Made by a program: the position numbers and the translations under genes. Positions 5,336-28,314 of a stretch of 28,314 nucleotides of DNA are shown here, one piece after another. Where the stretch lies: positions 1 through 28,314 of the IMG/VR virus record IMGVR_UViG_3300006923_000095. One strand, 5' to 3'. How positions within the stretch are numbered: the stretch's first letter is position 1; each line of letters starts with the position of its first letter. The stretch is from a virus. Below the pieces are notes generated by a model that was not told where the DNA came from, did not search any database, and saw only the letters and a program-made list of their open reading frames with translations.

Positions 5336-5343
5336 CCTAAATA
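5336..5343 (+). promoter_or_regulatory. Possible variant late promoter (CCTAAATA)
   Basis: CCTAAATA differs from TATAAATA at the first two bases; the same 8-mer recurs at 27217. Transcription from it would begin at about 5349-5350, the start codon of the next gene, which has no ribosome site of its own. Weak evidence alone; the recurrence and placement make it worth listing. Confidence 0.4.
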
Positions 5344-5349
5344 ACTTTC

Positions 5350-5859
5350 ATGAGTGAGAGTTTAAACAACAATATAACCAGGAATCTAACACAAAACTTA
5401 AATTTTGAAATTGTGTTTAGCGCTTTTCCCGGAATGGAATATCACTGTTCCTCGGTGTCTTTTCCCGGAATGAATCTCAGTGGACCCAAAATCCCAAACC
5501 AAATGTTAGCAGTACCTTTACAGGGCGACCATATTGAATTCGACGATCTTTCAGTAACATTCAACATTGATGAAGAATTCAAGAATTATTTTGAGTTATA
5601 TGATCGATTTGTAAAATGTGCTCCAATTAACGATTCTAGCACTCATGTGAATTTAACTGATGGAACTGTTATGGGTGATGTAAAATTGATAATATTGTCA
5701 AATAATAAAAATCCCATCAAGGTTATCGATTTTATCGGTCTTATACCGAGAACTTTATCAGGATTCGAATTATCCGCACAGACACCAGAACCAGAACCAA
5801 TACCAGCAACCGCAACATTCTCATATTTAAAGTTTGAAGAAAATACAGAAGCTTTGTAA
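5350..5859 (+). CDS. Tail tube (gp19)-like structural protein
   Basis: 169 residues with the layout of the T4 gp19/gp54 tail-tube fold: NFEIVFSAFPGMEYHCSSVS, then SFPGMNLSGPKIP, then a loop into GDHIEFDDLSVTFNIDEEF. A later strand pair is VIDFIGLIPRTLSGFELS, ending TATFSYLKFE. Equivalent T4 gp19 phrases are the 'ALPAG...' segment, 'FDDWTVTVMNDE' and 'KGLWPTNVGELQL'. It could be the tube protein itself, a tube terminator or a baseplate-tube protein. The ATG lacks a Shine-Dalgarno sequence (ctttc precedes it). Confidence is high for the fold and moderate for the exact role. Confidence 0.7.
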   Translation: MSESLNNNITRNLTQNLNFEIVFSAFPGMEYHCSSVSFPGMNLSGPKIPNQMLAVPLQGDHIEFDDLSVTFNIDEEFKNYFELYDRFVKCAPINDSSTHVNLTDGTVMGDVKLIILSNNKNPIKVIDFIGLIPRTLSGFELSAQTPEPEPIPATATFSYLKFEENTEAL

Positions 5860-7817: not shown

Positions 7818-8012
7818 TGAGTATTGGGACTATCATAAGCGAAGCGTAGCGTAGCGGGTAGCAGTTATTTTTATCAAAACTAAAATAGTTTGTAATTTGG
7901 GGTAAAAAACCACCTACATAATAACTATAGTATTAAAGTTATACTTATTACTCACTACGTTCGTAATAAGTGTTACGCTAACACTTCGTGTTACCGGTAA
8001 CACTAACTAGTG
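7800..8012. repeat. Chain of hairpins in the gap after uvsW
   Basis: This is the first half of the 418-bp non-coding gap 7818-8235. Visible inverted repeats are 7800-7809/7821-7831 (AGTCCCATAC with one bulge), 7877-7882/7886-7891, 7943-7951/7963-7971 (ACTTATTAC), 7969-7975/7979-7985, a perfect 16-bp palindrome at 7988-8003 (GTGTTACCGGTAACAC) and 8001-8005/8008-8012. The loops of the first and third hairpins are 17-base reverse complements (7807-7823 and 7949-7965). 7838-7860 is GCG/TAGC-rich. No T-run follows any stem, so these are not classic terminators. Confidence 0.85.
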
Positions 8013-8235: not shown

Positions 8236-8913
8236 ATGACTAAAAAAACGAATCCAACAACCAAAAAAACAACCAAAAAAACAACCAAAAAAACACCCAA
8301 ATCTAGGAAACGGCGCACAACAAATAAGCACTATGTAAATAACAAAGAGTTATTTGAAAATTTGTGTCCCTACCTAGAACGAGTCCGAGCGGCGAAATTG
8401 GATCAACCAGGAGTTAAAAAAGAAGATTTGGTTTTACCACAAGTTCCCGAATATATCGCAGATTGCATATTTAAAATTTGCGATAATATGTCAAGGAAAC
8501 CAAACTTCTTTGGATATACGTACCGAGAAGACATGGTTCTAGATGGAGTTGAAAATTGCTTGCGTTACATCGCAAATTTCAACGCAGAAAAATCTACAAA
8601 TCCATTTTCTTATTTTTCCCAAATTGCCCACTTCGCTTTCATTCGACGAATTAAATCGGAACACAAAGAAACGTATGTAAAGTGTAAAGCGATGGAATTG
8701 GCAGTCTTGGATTATGATAAAATTGGCGATTTGAATCCTCACGATACATCGGGTTTCGCCGCCCACTCGGGCATGGCGTATGATAACATTTATGATTTCA
8801 TCGACGAATACGAGTCGAAAATGAAAGCGAAGAAGAAAGACAACCCCAAACCCAAAAAGAAAAAACTTGAGGAATTCATGGACGACGACACAAAAAAGGA
8901 TAGCGATGAGTGA
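8236..8913 (+). CDS. 55: Late-transcription sigma factor gp55
   Basis: A 225-residue divergent sigma factor that directs host RNA polymerase to TATAAATA promoters. Core matches to T4 gp55: YVNNKELFENL (near 34-44), SRKPNFFGYTYREDMVLDGVENCLRYI and NFNAEKSTNPFSYFSQIAHFAFIRRIKSEHKE. The N-terminus has an additional Lys/Thr tail made by three exact 12-bp repeats. The C-terminal part is Lys-rich with KKLEEFMDDD, possibly the equivalent of the T4 clamp-binding SLDFLYE peptide, though not at the very end. The ATG has no Shine-Dalgarno and lies 7 bases after the -10 box. It overlaps the next gene by 8 bases. Confidence 0.95.
   Translation: MTKKTNPTTKKTTKKTTKKTPKSRKRRTTNKHYVNNKELFENLCPYLERVRAAKLDQPGVKKEDLVLPQVPEYIADCIFKICDNMSRKPNFFGYTYREDMVLDGVENCLRYIANFNAEKSTNPFSYFSQIAHFAFIRRIKSEHKETYVKCKAMELAVLDYDKIGDLNPHDTSGFAAHSGMAYDNIYDFIDEYESKMKAKKKDNPKPKKKKLEEFMDDDTKKDSDE
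8258..8293 (+). repeat. Three exact 12-bp tandem repeats in gene 55
   Basis: CAACCAAAAAAA at 8258, 8270 and 8282, encoding Thr-Thr-Lys-Lys units. Each contains an A7 run. In-frame copy-number change would lengthen or shorten the basic tail; slippage within A7 would break the gene. Confidence 0.9.
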
Positions 8914-10196: not shown

Positions 10197-11918
10197 ATGA
10201 TACAATTTAAGCAGTTAAGATATAAGAATTTTTTATCAACTGGAAACTATTTTACAGAAATAGATTTAGTTCGTCCGAGCAATACTCTGGTCGTCGGAAA
10301 AAATGGTAGTGGGAAATCTACAATGCTCGACGCTCTGACTTTTGTCCTTTTTGGGAAACCGTTTAGACGAGTAAATAAACCTCAATTAGTGAACAGTATA
10401 AACGAGAAGGGTACGCTTGTTGAAATTGATTTTAGTATCGGGACGAAGGATTTCATGGTTCGTCGAGGAATATTGCCGAACATTTTTGAAATATGGGAAA
10501 ATGACGTACAATTACCCCAACCGGCAGCGATCAAGGATTATCAAAAGAAATTAGAGAAAAATATATTGAAGATGAATTATAAGTCTTTCACACAAATAGT
10601 GATACTTGGTTCGTCTGGATTTACACCATTCATGAAATTACCACCACATCATAGGCGTATTGTCATAGAGGATATCCTAGATATTGGAGTATTTAGTCTG
10701 ATGAATCAAGCGCTCAAATCAAGAGCAGTAGCACTAAAGGACGAATTGCAAGAAATAGATAAAAATCTTGAAATACTTTTGGAGAAAATACGACTACAAT
10801 CCGAGTACATTTCTAAGATCGAACACAGCAACAAGGAACGACATACAGAAATCAATGATAAAATACTAGACAGAAATAAACAGAATAGAGAACTGACAAC
10901 GGAAGCGACACAAACACAAACTAGGATTTCTGAACTGATTACCCAAATTTCAAAATCTGATGAAATTCGCAAAAAACACAGGGACTATATTAATATTGAA
11001 CGGGATATAGTACGGAAACATCAAGAATGTAATCATAGAATAACATTTTTTAATGAGAATAGTTCATGTCCAACATGCACACAAAGCATTACTACTGATG
11101 TTTCGATGGGTGTCATAAACGAGAATACCACAAAATTATCAACATTTAACGAGGCGTTGGAAAAGATAAAGTCCAATCTGTTAGTTTTAGAAGATACATT
11201 ATCAAATATTAGTTTAGTAGAGAAAAATATATCAAACGAAAATCGGGAATTGCAAGCGAAAATGCTTGGTATAAAACATAATACTGAGTTGATCGAAAAA
11301 TTGACGGAAGAACGAGACAACTTGGTATCGACTGATAATTTAGAGGAAGAAAAAACTGGATTAGCTAATCAGAACGAACAACTCGAAGGTGTCAGAAAAC
11401 ACAAAGACAAGATAATTTCAACGAAAAACATCTATAATCGTGCTTATATGATGTTGAAAGATAGCGGTATAAAAACAAAGATTATAGAGCAATATCTCCC
11501 AATTATGAACAAACTCATCAATCAATACTTGACAGAATTTGATTTTTTTGTTAACTTTAACTTGGATGAGAATTTTAACGAAGAGATCAAATCAAGGCAC
11601 CGAGATGCTTTTTCCTATGATTCGTTTTCAGAGGGAGAGAAACAACGGATTGATTTGGCGATATTGTTTTGCTGGCGAGAAATTGCACGAATGAAAAATT
11701 CAGTATCAACCAATCTTCTTATTCTGGATGAACTTTTTGACTCATCACTAGATTCAGAAGGAACGGACGATTTTTTGAAGGTTATATCAGTGTTAGAAAA
11801 GAAGGGTGATAACCTTTTCGTGATAAGTCATAAAACTGATATTTTGTCTGAAGTATTTGAGGACGTTATAGAATTCGAAAAGATTGGGGATTTTTCACAA
11901 TTGAAGGGAAAAGAGTAA
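10197..11918 (+). CDS. 46: Recombination ATPase subunit gp46 (SbcC/Rad50-like)
   Basis: 573 residues, close to T4 gp46 (560). SMC-like layout: Walker A GKNGSGKST (34-42), Q-loop region near 133, coiled coil from about 175, zinc hook CPTC (291-294), returning coiled coil to about 410, ABC signature FSEGEKQR (477-484), Walker B LLILDE (507-512), and the His switch ISHK. Works with gp47 to open DNA ends. The start codon follows the gp47 stop immediately, and its own stop overlaps the next ATG by one base. Confidence 0.96.
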   Translation: MIQFKQLRYKNFLSTGNYFTEIDLVRPSNTLVVGKNGSGKSTMLDALTFVLFGKPFRRVNKPQLVNSINEKGTLVEIDFSIGTKDFMVRRGILPNIFEIWENDVQLPQPAAIKDYQKKLEKNILKMNYKSFTQIVILGSSGFTPFMKLPPHHRRIVIEDILDIGVFSLMNQALKSRAVALKDELQEIDKNLEILLEKIRLQSEYISKIEHSNKERHTEINDKILDRNKQNRELTTEATQTQTRISELITQISKSDEIRKKHRDYINIERDIVRKHQECNHRITFFNENSSCPTCTQSITTDVSMGVINENTTKLSTFNEALEKIKSNLLVLEDTLSNISLVEKNISNENRELQAKMLGIKHNTELIEKLTEERDNLVSTDNLEEEKTGLANQNEQLEGVRKHKDKIISTKNIYNRAYMMLKDSGIKTKIIEQYLPIMNKLINQYLTEFDFFVNFNLDENFNEEIKSRHRDAFSYDSFSEGEKQRIDLAILFCWREIARMKNSVSTNLLILDELFDSSLDSEGTDDFLKVISVLEKKGDNLFVISHKTDILSEVFEDVIEFEKIGDFSQLKGKE

Positions 11919-12925
11919 TGATAACAGGTTTGACGTATGACGATATATTGTTAATACCGTCCAAAAGTTTAGATTCTAGGAATGATCCAAATTTAGAGAC
12001 ACAATTGACACGAAATATAAAAATGGATATTCCTATAGTTTCAGCGAATATGGATACCGTTACAGGACCAAACCTCGCTGTTGCTATGTCAAAATTCGGT
12101 GGAACCGGTTTTTTGCACAGGAATAATTTAGTAGATGAATGTGTCGATAATTTTGAACAAACACAACGACGAATAACGGGTTCATTAACACCCGCTATAC
12201 CAACTGTGGGTGTTAATGAAATTTTTCGTATAGACCGTATACTTCACTGCACACCAAAAGCAATCTGTATAGATATTGCTAACGCATATTCTGACAAAGT
12301 TAAACAGATGATAGAACATATTCAGAATATAGACCCAGACGTTGAGATTATAGTTGGTAATGTTGCGTCGGCGCCCGGTGCATTATTTCTTGCTGATTTG
12401 GGAGTATCCGCTATAAAAGTTGGCATTGGACCAGGATCAGTTTGCACAACACGCTCGACGACAGGATTTGGAATACCACAATTCACAGCAGTTCAAATGG
12501 TGAAAGCGGGATTAGTTTATAGGGGATTTTTAGACGTTCCAGTTATCGCAGATGGGGGTCTCAAAAACTCTGGTGATATTGTCAAAGCGATTTTTGCTGG
12601 TGCTAATGTTGTAATGTCTGGAAGATTTTTTGCTGGTTGTGTAGAATCCGAACAATCTAATCACTATCGTGGAATGGCATCATCTGAAGCACGAAAGATA
12701 CTACATAACGATGAATATGTGGATACAATCGCAGAAGAAGGTGTGGTAACAGATTTAGAATGGACCGGATCAGTTATGCAAGTTTTGGAAAAACTTTGTA
12801 ATGGTATTCGGTCTGGCATGTCTTACGGTGGATGTCGAACAATAGATGAACTCATAAGATCTGAACATATTACACCAATAAGACAAACACAAAACGGAAT
12901 GATTGAATCAGGAACAAGAATTTAG
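11918..12925 (+). CDS. IMPDH/GMP reductase family enzyme, probably GMP reductase-like
   Basis: 335-residue TIM barrel of purine interconversion. The catalytic loop [11 protein letters not shown] (169-179) carries Cys176 and Thr178, and [14 protein letters not shown] binds the phosphate. It has no CBS domains, as in GMP reductase. GMASSEA (252-258) resembles the GMPR sequence GMSSE rather than IMPDH GMGS. The flap reads NDEYV...AEEGV: the Arg-Tyr pair IMPDH uses for hydrolysis is missing its Arg, and Glu274 fits the GMPR catalytic Glu. So I favour GMP + NADPH to IMP, but a CBS-less IMPDH is the alternative. Inserted between gp46 and gp45; no homologue exists there in T4. Confidence 0.85.
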
Positions 12926-12956: not shown

Positions 12957-12982
12957 AGTACTTGATAGGAGATAATTACATT

Positions 12983-16586: not shown

Positions 16587-16615
16587 TTGACAAATCAACC
16601 CGAAAGTGATATAAT
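16587..16615 (+). promoter_or_regulatory. Consensus sigma70 promoter of gene 43
   Basis: Perfect TTGACA (16587-16592), 17-base spacer, TG extended element and perfect TATAAT (16610-16615). The ATG begins 6 bases past the -10 box with no ribosome site, so transcription should begin at the start codon. Confidence 0.93.
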
Positions 16616-22496: not shown

Positions 22497-22525
22497 TTGA
22501 CGAACCACTCTAAAACCCTTATAAT
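22497..22525 (+). promoter_or_regulatory. Sigma70 promoter of the small gene at 22558
   Basis: TTGACG (22497-22502), 17-base spacer, perfect TATAAT (22520-22525). Predicted start near 22532 gives a leader of about 26 bases with a strong AAAGGGAG ribosome site. Confidence 0.87.
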
Positions 22526-25041: not shown

Positions 25042-26612
25042 TGAGAGAGGGAAAGAAAATAACTACACCCGAACAACTAGTTAAATTAGTACCATCGGAA
25101 GCAAAAATTTGGAACGGTAATACAGCGAAGATACCGAAACCCAAAGCTATTAATAGAGATACCGTGGTTATACCAAGTGCGCTAACACTCGATGAGATCA
25201 TGAAAGTGTTAGAATCAAATGGATACAAATATAATGCTAAATCGTCAACATGGAAATCTGGTAAATCGGTAATAGGGATTAATTGGAATGATAGTGGCGG
25301 TCGAGGAAGCGCTGTATTATGGCAAGAGTCTAATACTATGAATGAGAAAGTAGACATCAAAAAATTAAAAGGACCATTCCCATTCAGAGCGAAATCTGGA
25401 AAGGACATTGACATTTATCTTGACGACAATAGAGATAAAAAGCAATGGTACATTCCTCAACTTGATAAATTTGTGGATGAAAAAGAAGCGCAAAAATGGT
25501 TGAAGAGTGAAGACTCTGGAGAACTTGAAGAGTCTACATTAAGAATTGCTCCTAAATTTTCTTCAAAAAAAGGTGTGATACCGGTTATAGACACAGGGAC
25601 AGAAAAGAAAGGAACTCCTGGTGATATCGTCGGAGAAATAACCCGAGGCGGAAAAGGTTTTTCTTTTGAATTTGAGGATGAATTACAAGATAAATTGAAA
25701 CCCAGTGAAAAAGAATTCTCGCATAGGAACATGCAATCAGTGATTTCCCACATGAATAAACTATTTTCAAAATTATCACCGAAGAAAGAATCCACAAATA
25801 ACCAAGAGGATAATGATATGCTAGATGAAAAAGATAACAAAAGTACTTTAAAAACTCATGATCTTGGTAAAACTGATGATGATAAAGATAACGAGTTGCA
25901 AAAAAATGTCAACTCTCTTTTCAGTTTGCTAAAGAAGGGTGGACACTCTAAAGCGCCAACCTCTTTTAATGGTCTAGCAGTTCCACCAGATATGCAAAAA
26001 ATTCTGAATCAAAAATTTTCTGGTAAGGGTTCCCTCGCTGAAGATACCGAAGATGTTGAATTGGATGAAGGTATTGATCCAAAAGCTCATGGCGCTGGTT
26101 CTGGACCCGCATTAGATCAGCATCAAATGATTGACGATCTTTTTAGATTAAGTAAAGGGATGGGACGAACAAAACCACTCAGAACTTATAAAGGTGTTCA
26201 ATTAGAATCACACACTCTTATCGCTGTTCAACAGAAACTCGATGAATACTATCAAGCGGAAACCGAAGCAATTGAAGAGAATGACAGATTGAAGATCAAT
26301 ACGCTTTATGTCGATCAACTTTCTATGGACGCAGCTGCCGATAAGGGACAAACTTTAAAAAAAGTAATTGAGGAATCCCATAATGTCGGAGATTGGATAC
26401 ACCAGAAACAAAGTGATTTTGACTATTATGGGAAAGTTACAGAATTATTGAAAAATGGATCAGCGAAAGCTTTCGTAGTTCGTGTTGAAGGATCTAGAAT
26501 AGAGAAACCAAAACAAACGTCATTGAGGGGTTGGTATCCAGAACCGCGCAGAATTAAAGAAACTGATATTCCACCCAAAGCGCTAGCAAAATTAAAGACC
26601 AAATTGGACTGA
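25038..26612 (+). CDS. Large late protein with internal repeat
   Basis: 524 residues, not recognised. Residues 40-100 look globular (LTLDEIMKVLESNGYKY, WKSGKSVIGINW). Residues 105-160 may form another module. From 250 on, acidic linkers separate two ungapped 37-residue repeats (291-327 and 365-401; shared L-F-x-L, K, G, Q-K-[FL], 9 identities). Glu-rich linkers contain (I/L)-x-E sites such as L163-E-E165 and L342-D-E344 that the gp21 protease could cut. No signal peptide. ATG 25038 or 25041; GGGAAG lies upstream. A packaged or head-associated protein is a reasonable guess. Confidence 0.75.
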   Translation: MMREGKKITTPEQLVKLVPSEAKIWNGNTAKIPKPKAINRDTVVIPSALTLDEIMKVLESNGYKYNAKSSTWKSGKSVIGINWNDSGGRGSAVLWQESNTMNEKVDIKKLKGPFPFRAKSGKDIDIYLDDNRDKKQWYIPQLDKFVDEKEAQKWLKSEDSGELEESTLRIAPKFSSKKGVIPVIDTGTEKKGTPGDIVGEITRGGKGFSFEFEDELQDKLKPSEKEFSHRNMQSVISHMNKLFSKLSPKKESTNNQEDNDMLDEKDNKSTLKTHDLGKTDDDKDNELQKNVNSLFSLLKKGGHSKAPTSFNGLAVPPDMQKILNQKFSGKGSLAEDTEDVELDEGIDPKAHGAGSGPALDQHQMIDDLFRLSKGMGRTKPLRTYKGVQLESHTLIAVQQKLDEYYQAETEAIEENDRLKINTLYVDQLSMDAAADKGQTLKKVIEESHNVGDWIHQKQSDFDYYGKVTELLKNGSAKAFVVRVEGSRIEKPKQTSLRGWYPEPRRIKETDIPPKALAKLKTKLD

Positions 26613-26613
26613 T

Positions 26614-26621
26614 TATAAATA
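26614..26621 (+). promoter_or_regulatory. T4-type late promoter
   Basis: Exact TATAAATA two bases after the preceding stop codon. The start near 26627 leaves a short leader with AGGAG (26634-26638) for the structural gene at 26645. Confidence 0.87.
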
Positions 26622-26644
26622 CTCTAAAATACTAGGAGAGAATT

Positions 26645-27178
26645 ATGTCACTTTGGGGGACCGGAACTGGCGGGGACGAAGCCAAACCAAAATATTTGTC
26701 CGATACTGAAAAGAAGAAAACCTATGCCGACAAAACTGGATGGGTGTATGAACGACCCGATGGAACAAAAGAAATACTGGTTGCTGCTGGATCATTGTCA
26801 GACTCACTTGCTGGAGCAACGATCAACTCAATCGAATTTGTCGGAACCAATGTAACAGAAGCGCTCGAAGGACAAGTTAAAGTAATTTTTAATGAGGAAG
26901 TAGTCGTTGCAGGAACAACTGGAGATCTAACAATCCCATTGACAGCAACAACTGCCGGCGCTCTAACCGCAGCATACACTGCAGGAACAGGAACGAACCA
27001 ACTTACATTTGATTTCACAGCTCCCGACGCTCCCGATACCATTTCTGTAACCGGAACTACATTGACAAAAGGTTCTGCTACATTGAAGGATAAGGATGGT
27101 GACCTTGCTGACTCTGGTATTACATATACCGCAGGGATGGCAACAGGTGCTGGAACAATGACAGTGGACGCCGCATAA
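26645..27178 (+). CDS. Virion structural protein with Ig-like domain
   Basis: 177 residues. The start MSLWGTGTGGDEAKPKYLSD and the phrase TGWVYERPDGTKEILVAAGSL are typical of short head or neck structural proteins of marine T4-like phages (MSLWGK... type), as I recall. Residues 58-175 form one bacterial Ig-like/SwmB-like beta domain: VKVIFNEEVVV, a Thr/Ala-rich loop, NQLTFDF and ATLKDKDGDLADSG. Low Lys/Arg and high Gly/Thr/Ala match surface decoration. Exact late promoter and AGGAG site. Exact place in the virion unknown. Confidence 0.72.
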   Translation: MSLWGTGTGGDEAKPKYLSDTEKKKTYADKTGWVYERPDGTKEILVAAGSLSDSLAGATINSIEFVGTNVTEALEGQVKVIFNEEVVVAGTTGDLTIPLTATTAGALTAAYTAGTGTNQLTFDFTAPDAPDTISVTGTTLTKGSATLKDKDGDLADSGITYTAGMATGAGTMTVDAA

Positions 27179-27204
27179 AATAAATTTCAAAGAACTTAAA
27201 ACAC

Positions 27205-27261
27205 TAATCTATTTGTCCTAAATAATATTGACTATTACTATTAGAAAGGACAAATAGATTA
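27205..27261 (+). promoter_or_regulatory. 15-bp hairpin sequestering the start of the gene at 27261
   Basis: Left arm 27205-27219 (TAATCTATTTGTCCT) and right arm 27247-27261 (AGGACAAATAGATTA) are perfect complements around a 27-base loop. The right arm includes most of the AAGGA site and the A of the ATG. No T-run follows, so it is not a terminator. Read-through RNA would fold and hide the start. Confidence 0.85.
27217..27224 (+). promoter_or_regulatory. Variant late promoter inside the hairpin
   Basis: CCTAAATA, the same 8-mer as at 5336, spans the end of the left arm and the loop. RNA starting near 27230 would lack the left arm and leave the ribosome site free. Confidence 0.5.
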
Positions 27262-27704
27262 TGAGTGAAGAAATTAATGTTTTAGATTATGTTGAGAATT
27301 TCCGCAACAGTCTAGCAAACCAATCCCAGACAGATACCGCAAATTATGCCGAGTTGAGTCGACAAACCACCCAAATTGGAAAAGATATAGAATCTCTTAG
27401 AGGTGCTATCGCTTTATGTAATGAATTTATTACAGAAATTTCAGCGGAGGATGACCAACATGTCGTTAGACGAAACGAATTGACACAACAGCGGACGAAT
27501 CTTGTCACAACATACAGACAGAACGAAAAACAGCTGACAGATTTACATTCAGTTTTGCTATCAACGTCGGGTGCCCTGGAAGCACTACATCACGTATCGT
27601 CTAGATTTACAAATCAAGTTGATACGGAAGTAAATACTGAAGTTGATACCATTGTGGATGTTGAAGAGATGCCAGCAGTTCCCGATGATATTGAAGAGAA
27701 GTAA
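27261..27704 (+). CDS. Coiled-coil hypothetical protein
   Basis: 147 residues, not recognised. Residues 25-115 are helical, with heptad-like spacing (DIESLRGAIALCNEFITEI, NLVTTYRQNEKQLTDLH), probably a coiled coil. The acidic C-terminus has a degenerate Val-Asp/Asn-Thr-Glu repeat (QVDTEVNTEVDTIVD). Its start is buried in the 27205-27261 hairpin, implying tight timing of translation. TAATG junction with the next gene. Confidence 0.82.
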   Translation: MSEEINVLDYVENFRNSLANQSQTDTANYAELSRQTTQIGKDIESLRGAIALCNEFITEISAEDDQHVVRRNELTQQRTNLVTTYRQNEKQLTDLHSVLLSTSGALEALHHVSSRFTNQVDTEVNTEVDTIVDVEEMPAVPDDIEEK

Positions 27705-28096
27705 TGCTTTTTGAAAATATTGACAGTTCTAATTTTATAGATTATGCTGAAACTTTCTATCACAACCCTCAGTGTACTTGTTATGATGATTTTTTGGAAG
27801 ACATAAACAGAATCAAGTATGTTAAAAGATTGTTTAATAAATACACTAGAAGTGGAGAATTCAAAGAACGACTAGTGCTCAATCATGTTATAGCGTTTTA
27901 TAATGTGTTTGATAGTTATGCTGCAACAAGGATTTGGTTTACTAGGATCGACAAGGAACATTGGTCAACTTTACATGCAGTATTGAAATTCTTGGGATAC
28001 ATGCCCAGAATTATACATGGCATTAACGAAACACATGTGCTTTCTGATGAACTTCCACTAAACGAGGAAGTTTATAATAAACTAGAAAGTCTATGA
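27704..28096 (+). CDS. Conserved T4-like phage protein of unknown function
   Basis: 130 residues, mainly helical. The phrase DINRIKYVKRLFNKYTRSGEFKERLVLNH followed by YNVFDSYAATRIWF and HAVLKFLGYMP is, to my memory, a pattern common in marine T4-like phages, but with no assigned function. No catalytic motif or membrane segment seen. Cys-containing CTCYDD near residue 24. Linked by TAATG upstream and ATGA downstream, so expressed with its neighbours. Confidence 0.85.
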   Translation: MLFENIDSSNFIDYAETFYHNPQCTCYDDFLEDINRIKYVKRLFNKYTRSGEFKERLVLNHVIAFYNVFDSYAATRIWFTRIDKEHWSTLHAVLKFLGYMPRIIHGINETHVLSDELPLNEEVYNKLESL

Positions 28097-28314
28097 TACT
28101 AAATGAAGGGTTACTCGGTTCAGCAACAAGTCTATTTGTCTTGTACAAAATAATTTCCAAGATGGTCACTCCTATTGAGTCGACTCAAGCATATAAATTG
28201 GGAATAGTTGACGACAAGGGGAAAATACTTAGAAAATCTAAAACTCTGACAACACAAGAGGAAAAGGATTCTCTGACTTTATTAGATGTCTTTATATTCA
28301 ATTTGAAGCGGACT
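28093..28314 (+). CDS. Conserved phage protein, N-terminal part (runs off the window)
   Basis: 74 residues visible from ATG 28093, which overlaps the previous stop. Begins MILNEGLLGSATSLF, then YKIISKMVTPIESTQAYKLGIVDDKGKILRKSK and LTLLDVFIFNLKR. The pattern 'P-x-E-x-T-x-A-Y-x-L-G-I-x-D-x-x-G-K' followed by 'F-N-L-K-R' is familiar from an uncharacterised family in marine T4-like phages. The C-terminus is missing, so nothing more can be said. Confidence 0.8.
   Translation, partial: MILNEGLLGSATSLFVLYKIISKMVTPIESTQAYKLGIVDDKGKILRKSKTLTTQEEKDSLTLLDVFIFNLKRT

Follow-up and report, generated by a model that had tools for sequence, protein, structure and literature searches.

The window, that is, the whole stretch of 28,314 nucleotides analysed here, is a 28.3-kb virus record with matches to the gp21-like protease, gp23 and gp55, which identify a T4-like phage, and its gp23 is ~59-65% identical to those of Methylophilales phage Melnitz, Pelagibacter phage HTVC008M and cyanophages: the phage is a marine relative of T4. 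The T4 late transcription machinery is represented in the window by a homologue of the late sigma factor gp55 (8236-8913, + strand; phrog_234, E = 2.7e-53), and the gene at 12962 is probably gp45-like, as judged from its position and sequence. Between the latter and a gp46-like gene lies a putative GuaB/GuaC-like gene of the IMP dehydrogenase/GMP reductase type (11918-12925, + strand).

The feature under study spans positions 27205-27261 and is preceded by a gene of phrog_11617 (26645-27178, + strand), whose relatives are annotated as S-layer domain proteins. The gene which starts at its last nucleotide (27261-27704, + strand) encodes a 147-aa protein predicted to form a two-helix coiled-coil hairpin (pLDDT 85.5, helices 7-59 and 65-132). 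This protein has no family match and no close homologue in phages, PHROGs or Pfam, its only occurrence in IMG/VR is in the same virus, and a structure search with the coiled coil returned nothing at E <= 0.001. It is followed by a phrog_407/DUF7207 gene (27704-28096, + strand), the start of which overlaps the preceding stop codon in TAATG (27702-27706), and by a third gene (28093-28314, + strand), which overlaps its predecessor in ATGA (28093-28096) and runs off the window. The third gene carries on in the sole close relative, contig IMGVR_UViG_3300025103_000243, which is 99.94% identical over 4.9 kb, has an identical hairpin and is the same virus. Past the window end (L003 / L197), this contig next contains a gene of unknown function and also a gene for what appears to be a membrane-anchored FtsH-like AAA protease.

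The hairpin is composed of a left arm, TAATCTATTTGTCCT (27205-27219, + strand), a 27-nt loop (27220-27246, + strand) which upon folding forms a small inner hairpin, and a right arm, AGGACAAATAGATTA (27247-27261, + strand), the two arms being complementary over 15 bp without a mismatch. The right arm comprises the Shine-Dalgarno AGGA (27247-27250) and reaches the A of the start codon at 27261, and the spacing between AGGA and ATG is 10 nt, on the long side. A late-promoter-like box, CCTAAATA (27217-27224, + strand), overlaps the last 3 nt of the left arm. A sequence-only reading of this DNA had described a perfect 15-bp inverted repeat whose right arm covers the ribosome site and the first base of the ATG, with a promoter box across the border between left arm and loop, and this description holds, for the repeat to the base. 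The hairpin is the top-ranked inverted repeat in the 28 kb; indeed, a perfect 15-bp repeat occurred in only 1 of 300 dinucleotide shuffles when the longest perfect repeat of the whole window was scored, and the local fold has a z-score of -5.4, with none of 200 shuffles being as stable. The hairpin region has no Rfam match near any gathering score. We have rejected its reading as an intrinsic terminator, because no U-tract follows the stem (there is none in 26400-28314). As 26 nt separate the stop codon of the upstream gene (27178) from the left arm, ribosomes terminating there should leave the stem intact. A second inverted repeat, of 23 nt and imperfect (78%), is found at 7929-7985 in the gap between the UvsW-like and gp55 genes, where it is followed by a palindrome (7985-8006).

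Folding predictions with and without the left arm gave the outcome which the sequence-only reading had anticipated, the start site being buried in read-through RNA and freed in RNA beginning at 27230. In the former, which includes RNA from the promoter at 26614, AGGA is predicted to be unpaired at 0-6% and the AUG at 3-10%, a stable stem thus burying the Shine-Dalgarno and the start codon, whereas in the latter the stem is unable to form and the corresponding values rise to 77-99% and 31-93%. The calculated cost of opening the start site decreases from 19.3 kcal/mol in read-through RNA to 2.3 kcal/mol in the late RNA, which corresponds to a difference of 17.0 kcal/mol; T4 gene e, scored in the same way as a positive control, yields 11.8 kcal/mol. 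When all 34 gene starts of the window are compared under a common protocol, the start at 27261 has the highest opening energy (17.3 kcal/mol), the second highest being 8.2 and the median 3.4 kcal/mol.

A consensus late promoter, TATAAATA, is present, as had been stated, at 26614-26621 (+ strand), upstream of the gene at 26645, where it could act as a source of late read-through, and the same box precedes gp23 (2751) and further genes. The other well-placed late boxes of the window are either TATAAATA or AATAAATA, whereas the hairpin box CCTAAATA is a variant. This variant had been regarded as lacking a known counterpart, which turns out not to be the case, as the late promoter of the T4-like phage Aeh1 is CTAAATA (PMC1524935). 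Since, in addition, marine T4-like phages have NCTAAATA upstream of gene starts preferentially on the sense strand (CC 10:0, AC 24:3), CCTAAATA at 27217 is a plausible candidate late promoter. From the geometry of T4 late promoters, the 5' end of its transcript would be expected at the G or A at 27230-27231 (+ strand), 13 nt from the box start; the box is thus positioned where the late RNA is predicted to lose the left arm and to have its ribosome site released. Another CCTAAATA occurs at 5336-5350 (+ strand), 14 nt before the ATG of the gene at 5350, and leaves no room for a leader with a ribosome site; the late message may be leaderless, the start may be wrongly assigned, or the box may be due to chance.

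We consider it probable that 27205-27261 is a translation lock of the type described for T4 genes e, soc, 49 and I-TevI. RNA started upstream of 27205, either early or late from 26614, would hold both arms, as only such RNA contains the whole left arm, and would fold at approximately -20 kcal/mol, burying the AGGA and the start codon of the 27261 gene. Late in infection, polymerase with gp55 would start at CCTAAATA and produce RNA from ~27230, which would lack the left arm and would therefore have a free ribosome site; the two downstream genes would then follow by translational coupling through their overlapping starts (TAATG and ATGA). The sequence-only reading had proposed a timing switch of this kind, with the gene hidden in read-through RNA from 26614 and freed by the internal late promoter. 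The predicted folding, the position of the box, the T4 gene e control and the enrichment described below all favour this mechanism, but the designated source of the silenced RNA does not fit, as the promoter at 26614 is itself a consensus late promoter: for a timing switch, the read-through RNA would have to be early or middle and to originate further upstream. Such early read-through into the 27261 region is plausible on sequence grounds, because perfect or near-perfect matches to the sigma-70-type promoter consensus are found at 16587, 20347 and 22497, the last of which (22497-22525, + strand, 11/12) is a possible source, and because no terminator-like site was found on the + strand after 24103. 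With a late promoter at 26614, the lock would in addition set the 27261 gene apart from the late message that carries its upstream neighbour, a role which differs from timing alone.

Comparison with related phages did not yield compensatory changes in the arms, because the sole other carrier of the hairpin is the same virus and no diverged homologue keeping the hairpin was found. Melnitz-like phages have, as counterpart in this position, a coiled-coil gene of 85 aa (Melnitz gene 24 and others), which shares a GAI-x-x-C motif with the 147-aa protein, the homology being weak (hhalign probability 23%). These counterparts start ~20-35 nt after the S-layer-domain gene and have neither a hairpin nor a late box of their own. 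The sequence-only reading had held that relatives keeping the gene and not the pairing would speak against the lock, and the 85-aa genes correspond to this situation in part, to the extent that so weak a homology makes them the same gene. In a second lineage, that of G006, G017 and their relatives, another gene occupies the slot between the S-layer-domain and DUF7207 genes, and its start is buried because it pairs with the late box of this same gene. That the slot carries a lock with a late box here too, although one of different build, speaks for the lock of the window; leaders of boxless homologues of the G006/G017 gene are devoid of that pairing. In G006 and G017 the left arm consists of the box, which abuts the stop codon of the preceding gene, and upstream translation might thereby open the lock.

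We have surveyed 2.6 Mb of T4-like phage sequence, computing the opening difference wherever a NNTAAATA box is followed by a ribosome site and a start. Within this set, whose loci were partly gathered around the neighbourhood of the window and are thus not an unbiased census, the window difference of 17.0 kcal/mol ranks second among 460 late-box/gene-start pairs, and differences of at least 10 kcal/mol were observed 13 times against 0.33 expected from shuffling the sequence upstream of the start point. RuvC-like and RusA-like resolvase genes are among these 13, as is the gene slot of the window in another lineage. When the box was replaced by seven other AT-rich hexamers with no TAAATA nearby, 3 of ~1,850 cases reached this value. 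Among the late-box pairs themselves, it is still reached by 10 of 446 after exclusion of starts flagged as divergent. The scan that detects the lock of the window also finds T4 gene e; T4 soc was missed under the fixed start rule, hence the scan has false negatives. Divergent late-promoter pairs (Melnitz L174 12721/37239 and L188 5792/14179) were discounted as locks, their high scores being due to two facing boxes which pair with each other. At these sites (Melnitz L174:12700-12780 and L188:5779-5833) the facing promoters give mutually complementary leaders, and each of the divergent genes has a start predicted to be buried in read-through RNA. The SNase-domain gene of S-SSM7 was rejected as a conserved second example: its hairpin is weak (3.6-6.3 kcal/mol) and missing in most of 51 variants of the leader, which resemble upstream coding sequence, and for this reason differences below about 7 kcal/mol were not counted as real.

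The strongest lock in the survey belongs to a RuvC-like resolvase gene (21.2 kcal/mol) and is kept in relatives 97-100% identical; locks of another build are found in the homologues L244 (9.5 kcal/mol) and L418 (37% identical; 8.5 kcal/mol), and most other RuvC-like homologues have no box. Late boxes embedded in hairpins are seen on RuvC-like/RusA-like resolvase genes at L198:9360-9941, L244:6072-6650, L184:5886-6233 and in L418. Two related proteins of 113-114 aa with no family match (L188:11459-11800 and L217:4698-5042) likewise have a late box in a start-burying hairpin, with strengths of 10.2 and 7.0 kcal/mol, respectively. We see about even chances that late promoters locked in hairpins form a widespread level of regulation in marine T4-like phages rather than a peculiarity of T4, independently invented with different sequences and repeated on resolvases (RuvC-like, RusA-like) and in the S-layer/DUF7207 slot.

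Other explanations of the hairpin have to be weighed. It could silence translation of read-through RNA without CCTAAATA being a promoter, the gene being then opened by a protein or RNA acting in trans or by translational coupling, or simply kept low. The deviation of the box from the TATAAATA boxes of the window would agree with this, and with 21 occurrences of TAAATA on the + strand of the 28 kb, the chance of finding it in a given 15-nt slot is ~1%. However, the box lies exactly where a transcription start removes the left arm, 3 of the 14 CCTAAATA boxes in the survey are in locks (difference of at least 8 kcal/mol, that of the window counted), and both the sense-strand enrichment of NCTAAATA in related phages and the Aeh1 late promoter argue for promoter function; we thus regard this explanation as unlikely. 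It is more doubtful still that the hairpin is an element of RNA processing or stability, i.e. a site of cutting by a host RNase or a 3'-end protection of the 26645 message, to which the overlap with the ribosome site would be secondary. Stems of such length can attract an RNase III-type enzyme, for which the 15 bp stem with its inner 5-bp stem is long enough, and the distance of 26 nt from the stop codon of the 26645 gene would suit a 3' element; yet the right arm includes the Shine-Dalgarno and ends exactly on the start codon, so that cleavage there would hit the ribosome site or its immediate vicinity, and the missing U-tract speaks against a terminator.

An element acting at the DNA level, either a dyad operator or a recombination scar which mimics an RNA lock, appears very improbable. 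Operators and scars can also be perfect inverted repeats, but here the two arms, with 27 nt between them, enclose a late box, the stem matches the position of the start codon to the base, and the combination of hairpin and late box is enriched in relatives. That the repeat is due to chance and has no function is hardly credible: although the genome is AT-rich and one window shuffle in 300 contains a perfect 15-bp repeat somewhere, this repeat lies in addition on a ribosome site and has a late box in the right place, and as each of these coincidences has a chance of a few per cent or less, their joint chance is very small.

The device itself is long known in T4; what is new is the phage and the gated gene. 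Few genes have been known to carry the lock, in phages infecting enteric bacteria or Aeromonas, and the window, together with the box-specific enrichment, suggests that marine T4-like phages apply such a lock, dependent on the RNA 5' end, to their own set of genes. This matters for reading the timing of expression in these phages from sequence alone, and the apparent recurrence of the locks among them is the more interesting lead. Gene e was found in none of the cyanophages examined by a 2010 review (PMC3014915), and the 2010 cyanophage papers searched contain no mention of such a hairpin. For T4 genes e, soc, 49 and I-TevI, translation is blocked on read-through RNA and permitted on late RNA (PMC3014915, PMC2988022), and the structure in gene e cuts lysozyme synthesis ~100-fold (PMC3014915). 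As in the window, the start site of gene e is buried in the long RNA and a late promoter lies in the region encoding the 5' strand of the stem. However, it is the late box of gene e that forms the pairing with the ribosome site, while here most of the left arm precedes the box; the present stem is also longer and free of mismatches, and it belongs to an unrelated gene. The same regulatory logic is shared by T4 soc, 49, I-TevI/II/III and segB and by Aeh1 mobE (PMC3014915, PMC2988022). These genes come from phages that infect enteric bacteria or Aeromonas, and their products are a capsid decoration protein, endonuclease VII and homing endonucleases; in the marine phage studied here, the gene under the putative lock encodes a coiled-coil protein without an assigned function. 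As for the box, Aeh1 CTAAATA is the same variant as that of the hairpin, with the A before TAAATA replaced by C (PMC1524935), but Aeh1 uses it as its late promoter in general, whereas here most late boxes are TATAAATA. Late boxes with a start-burying stem of comparable strength are found in G006 L189, G017 L216, G005 L183, Melnitz L174 and the RuvC-like L198; G006 L189 and G017 L216 occupy the gene slot of the window, and the gated genes of all five are unrelated to the one studied here. Finally, the locks on RuvC-like/RusA-like Holliday-junction resolvases recall that of T4 gene 49.
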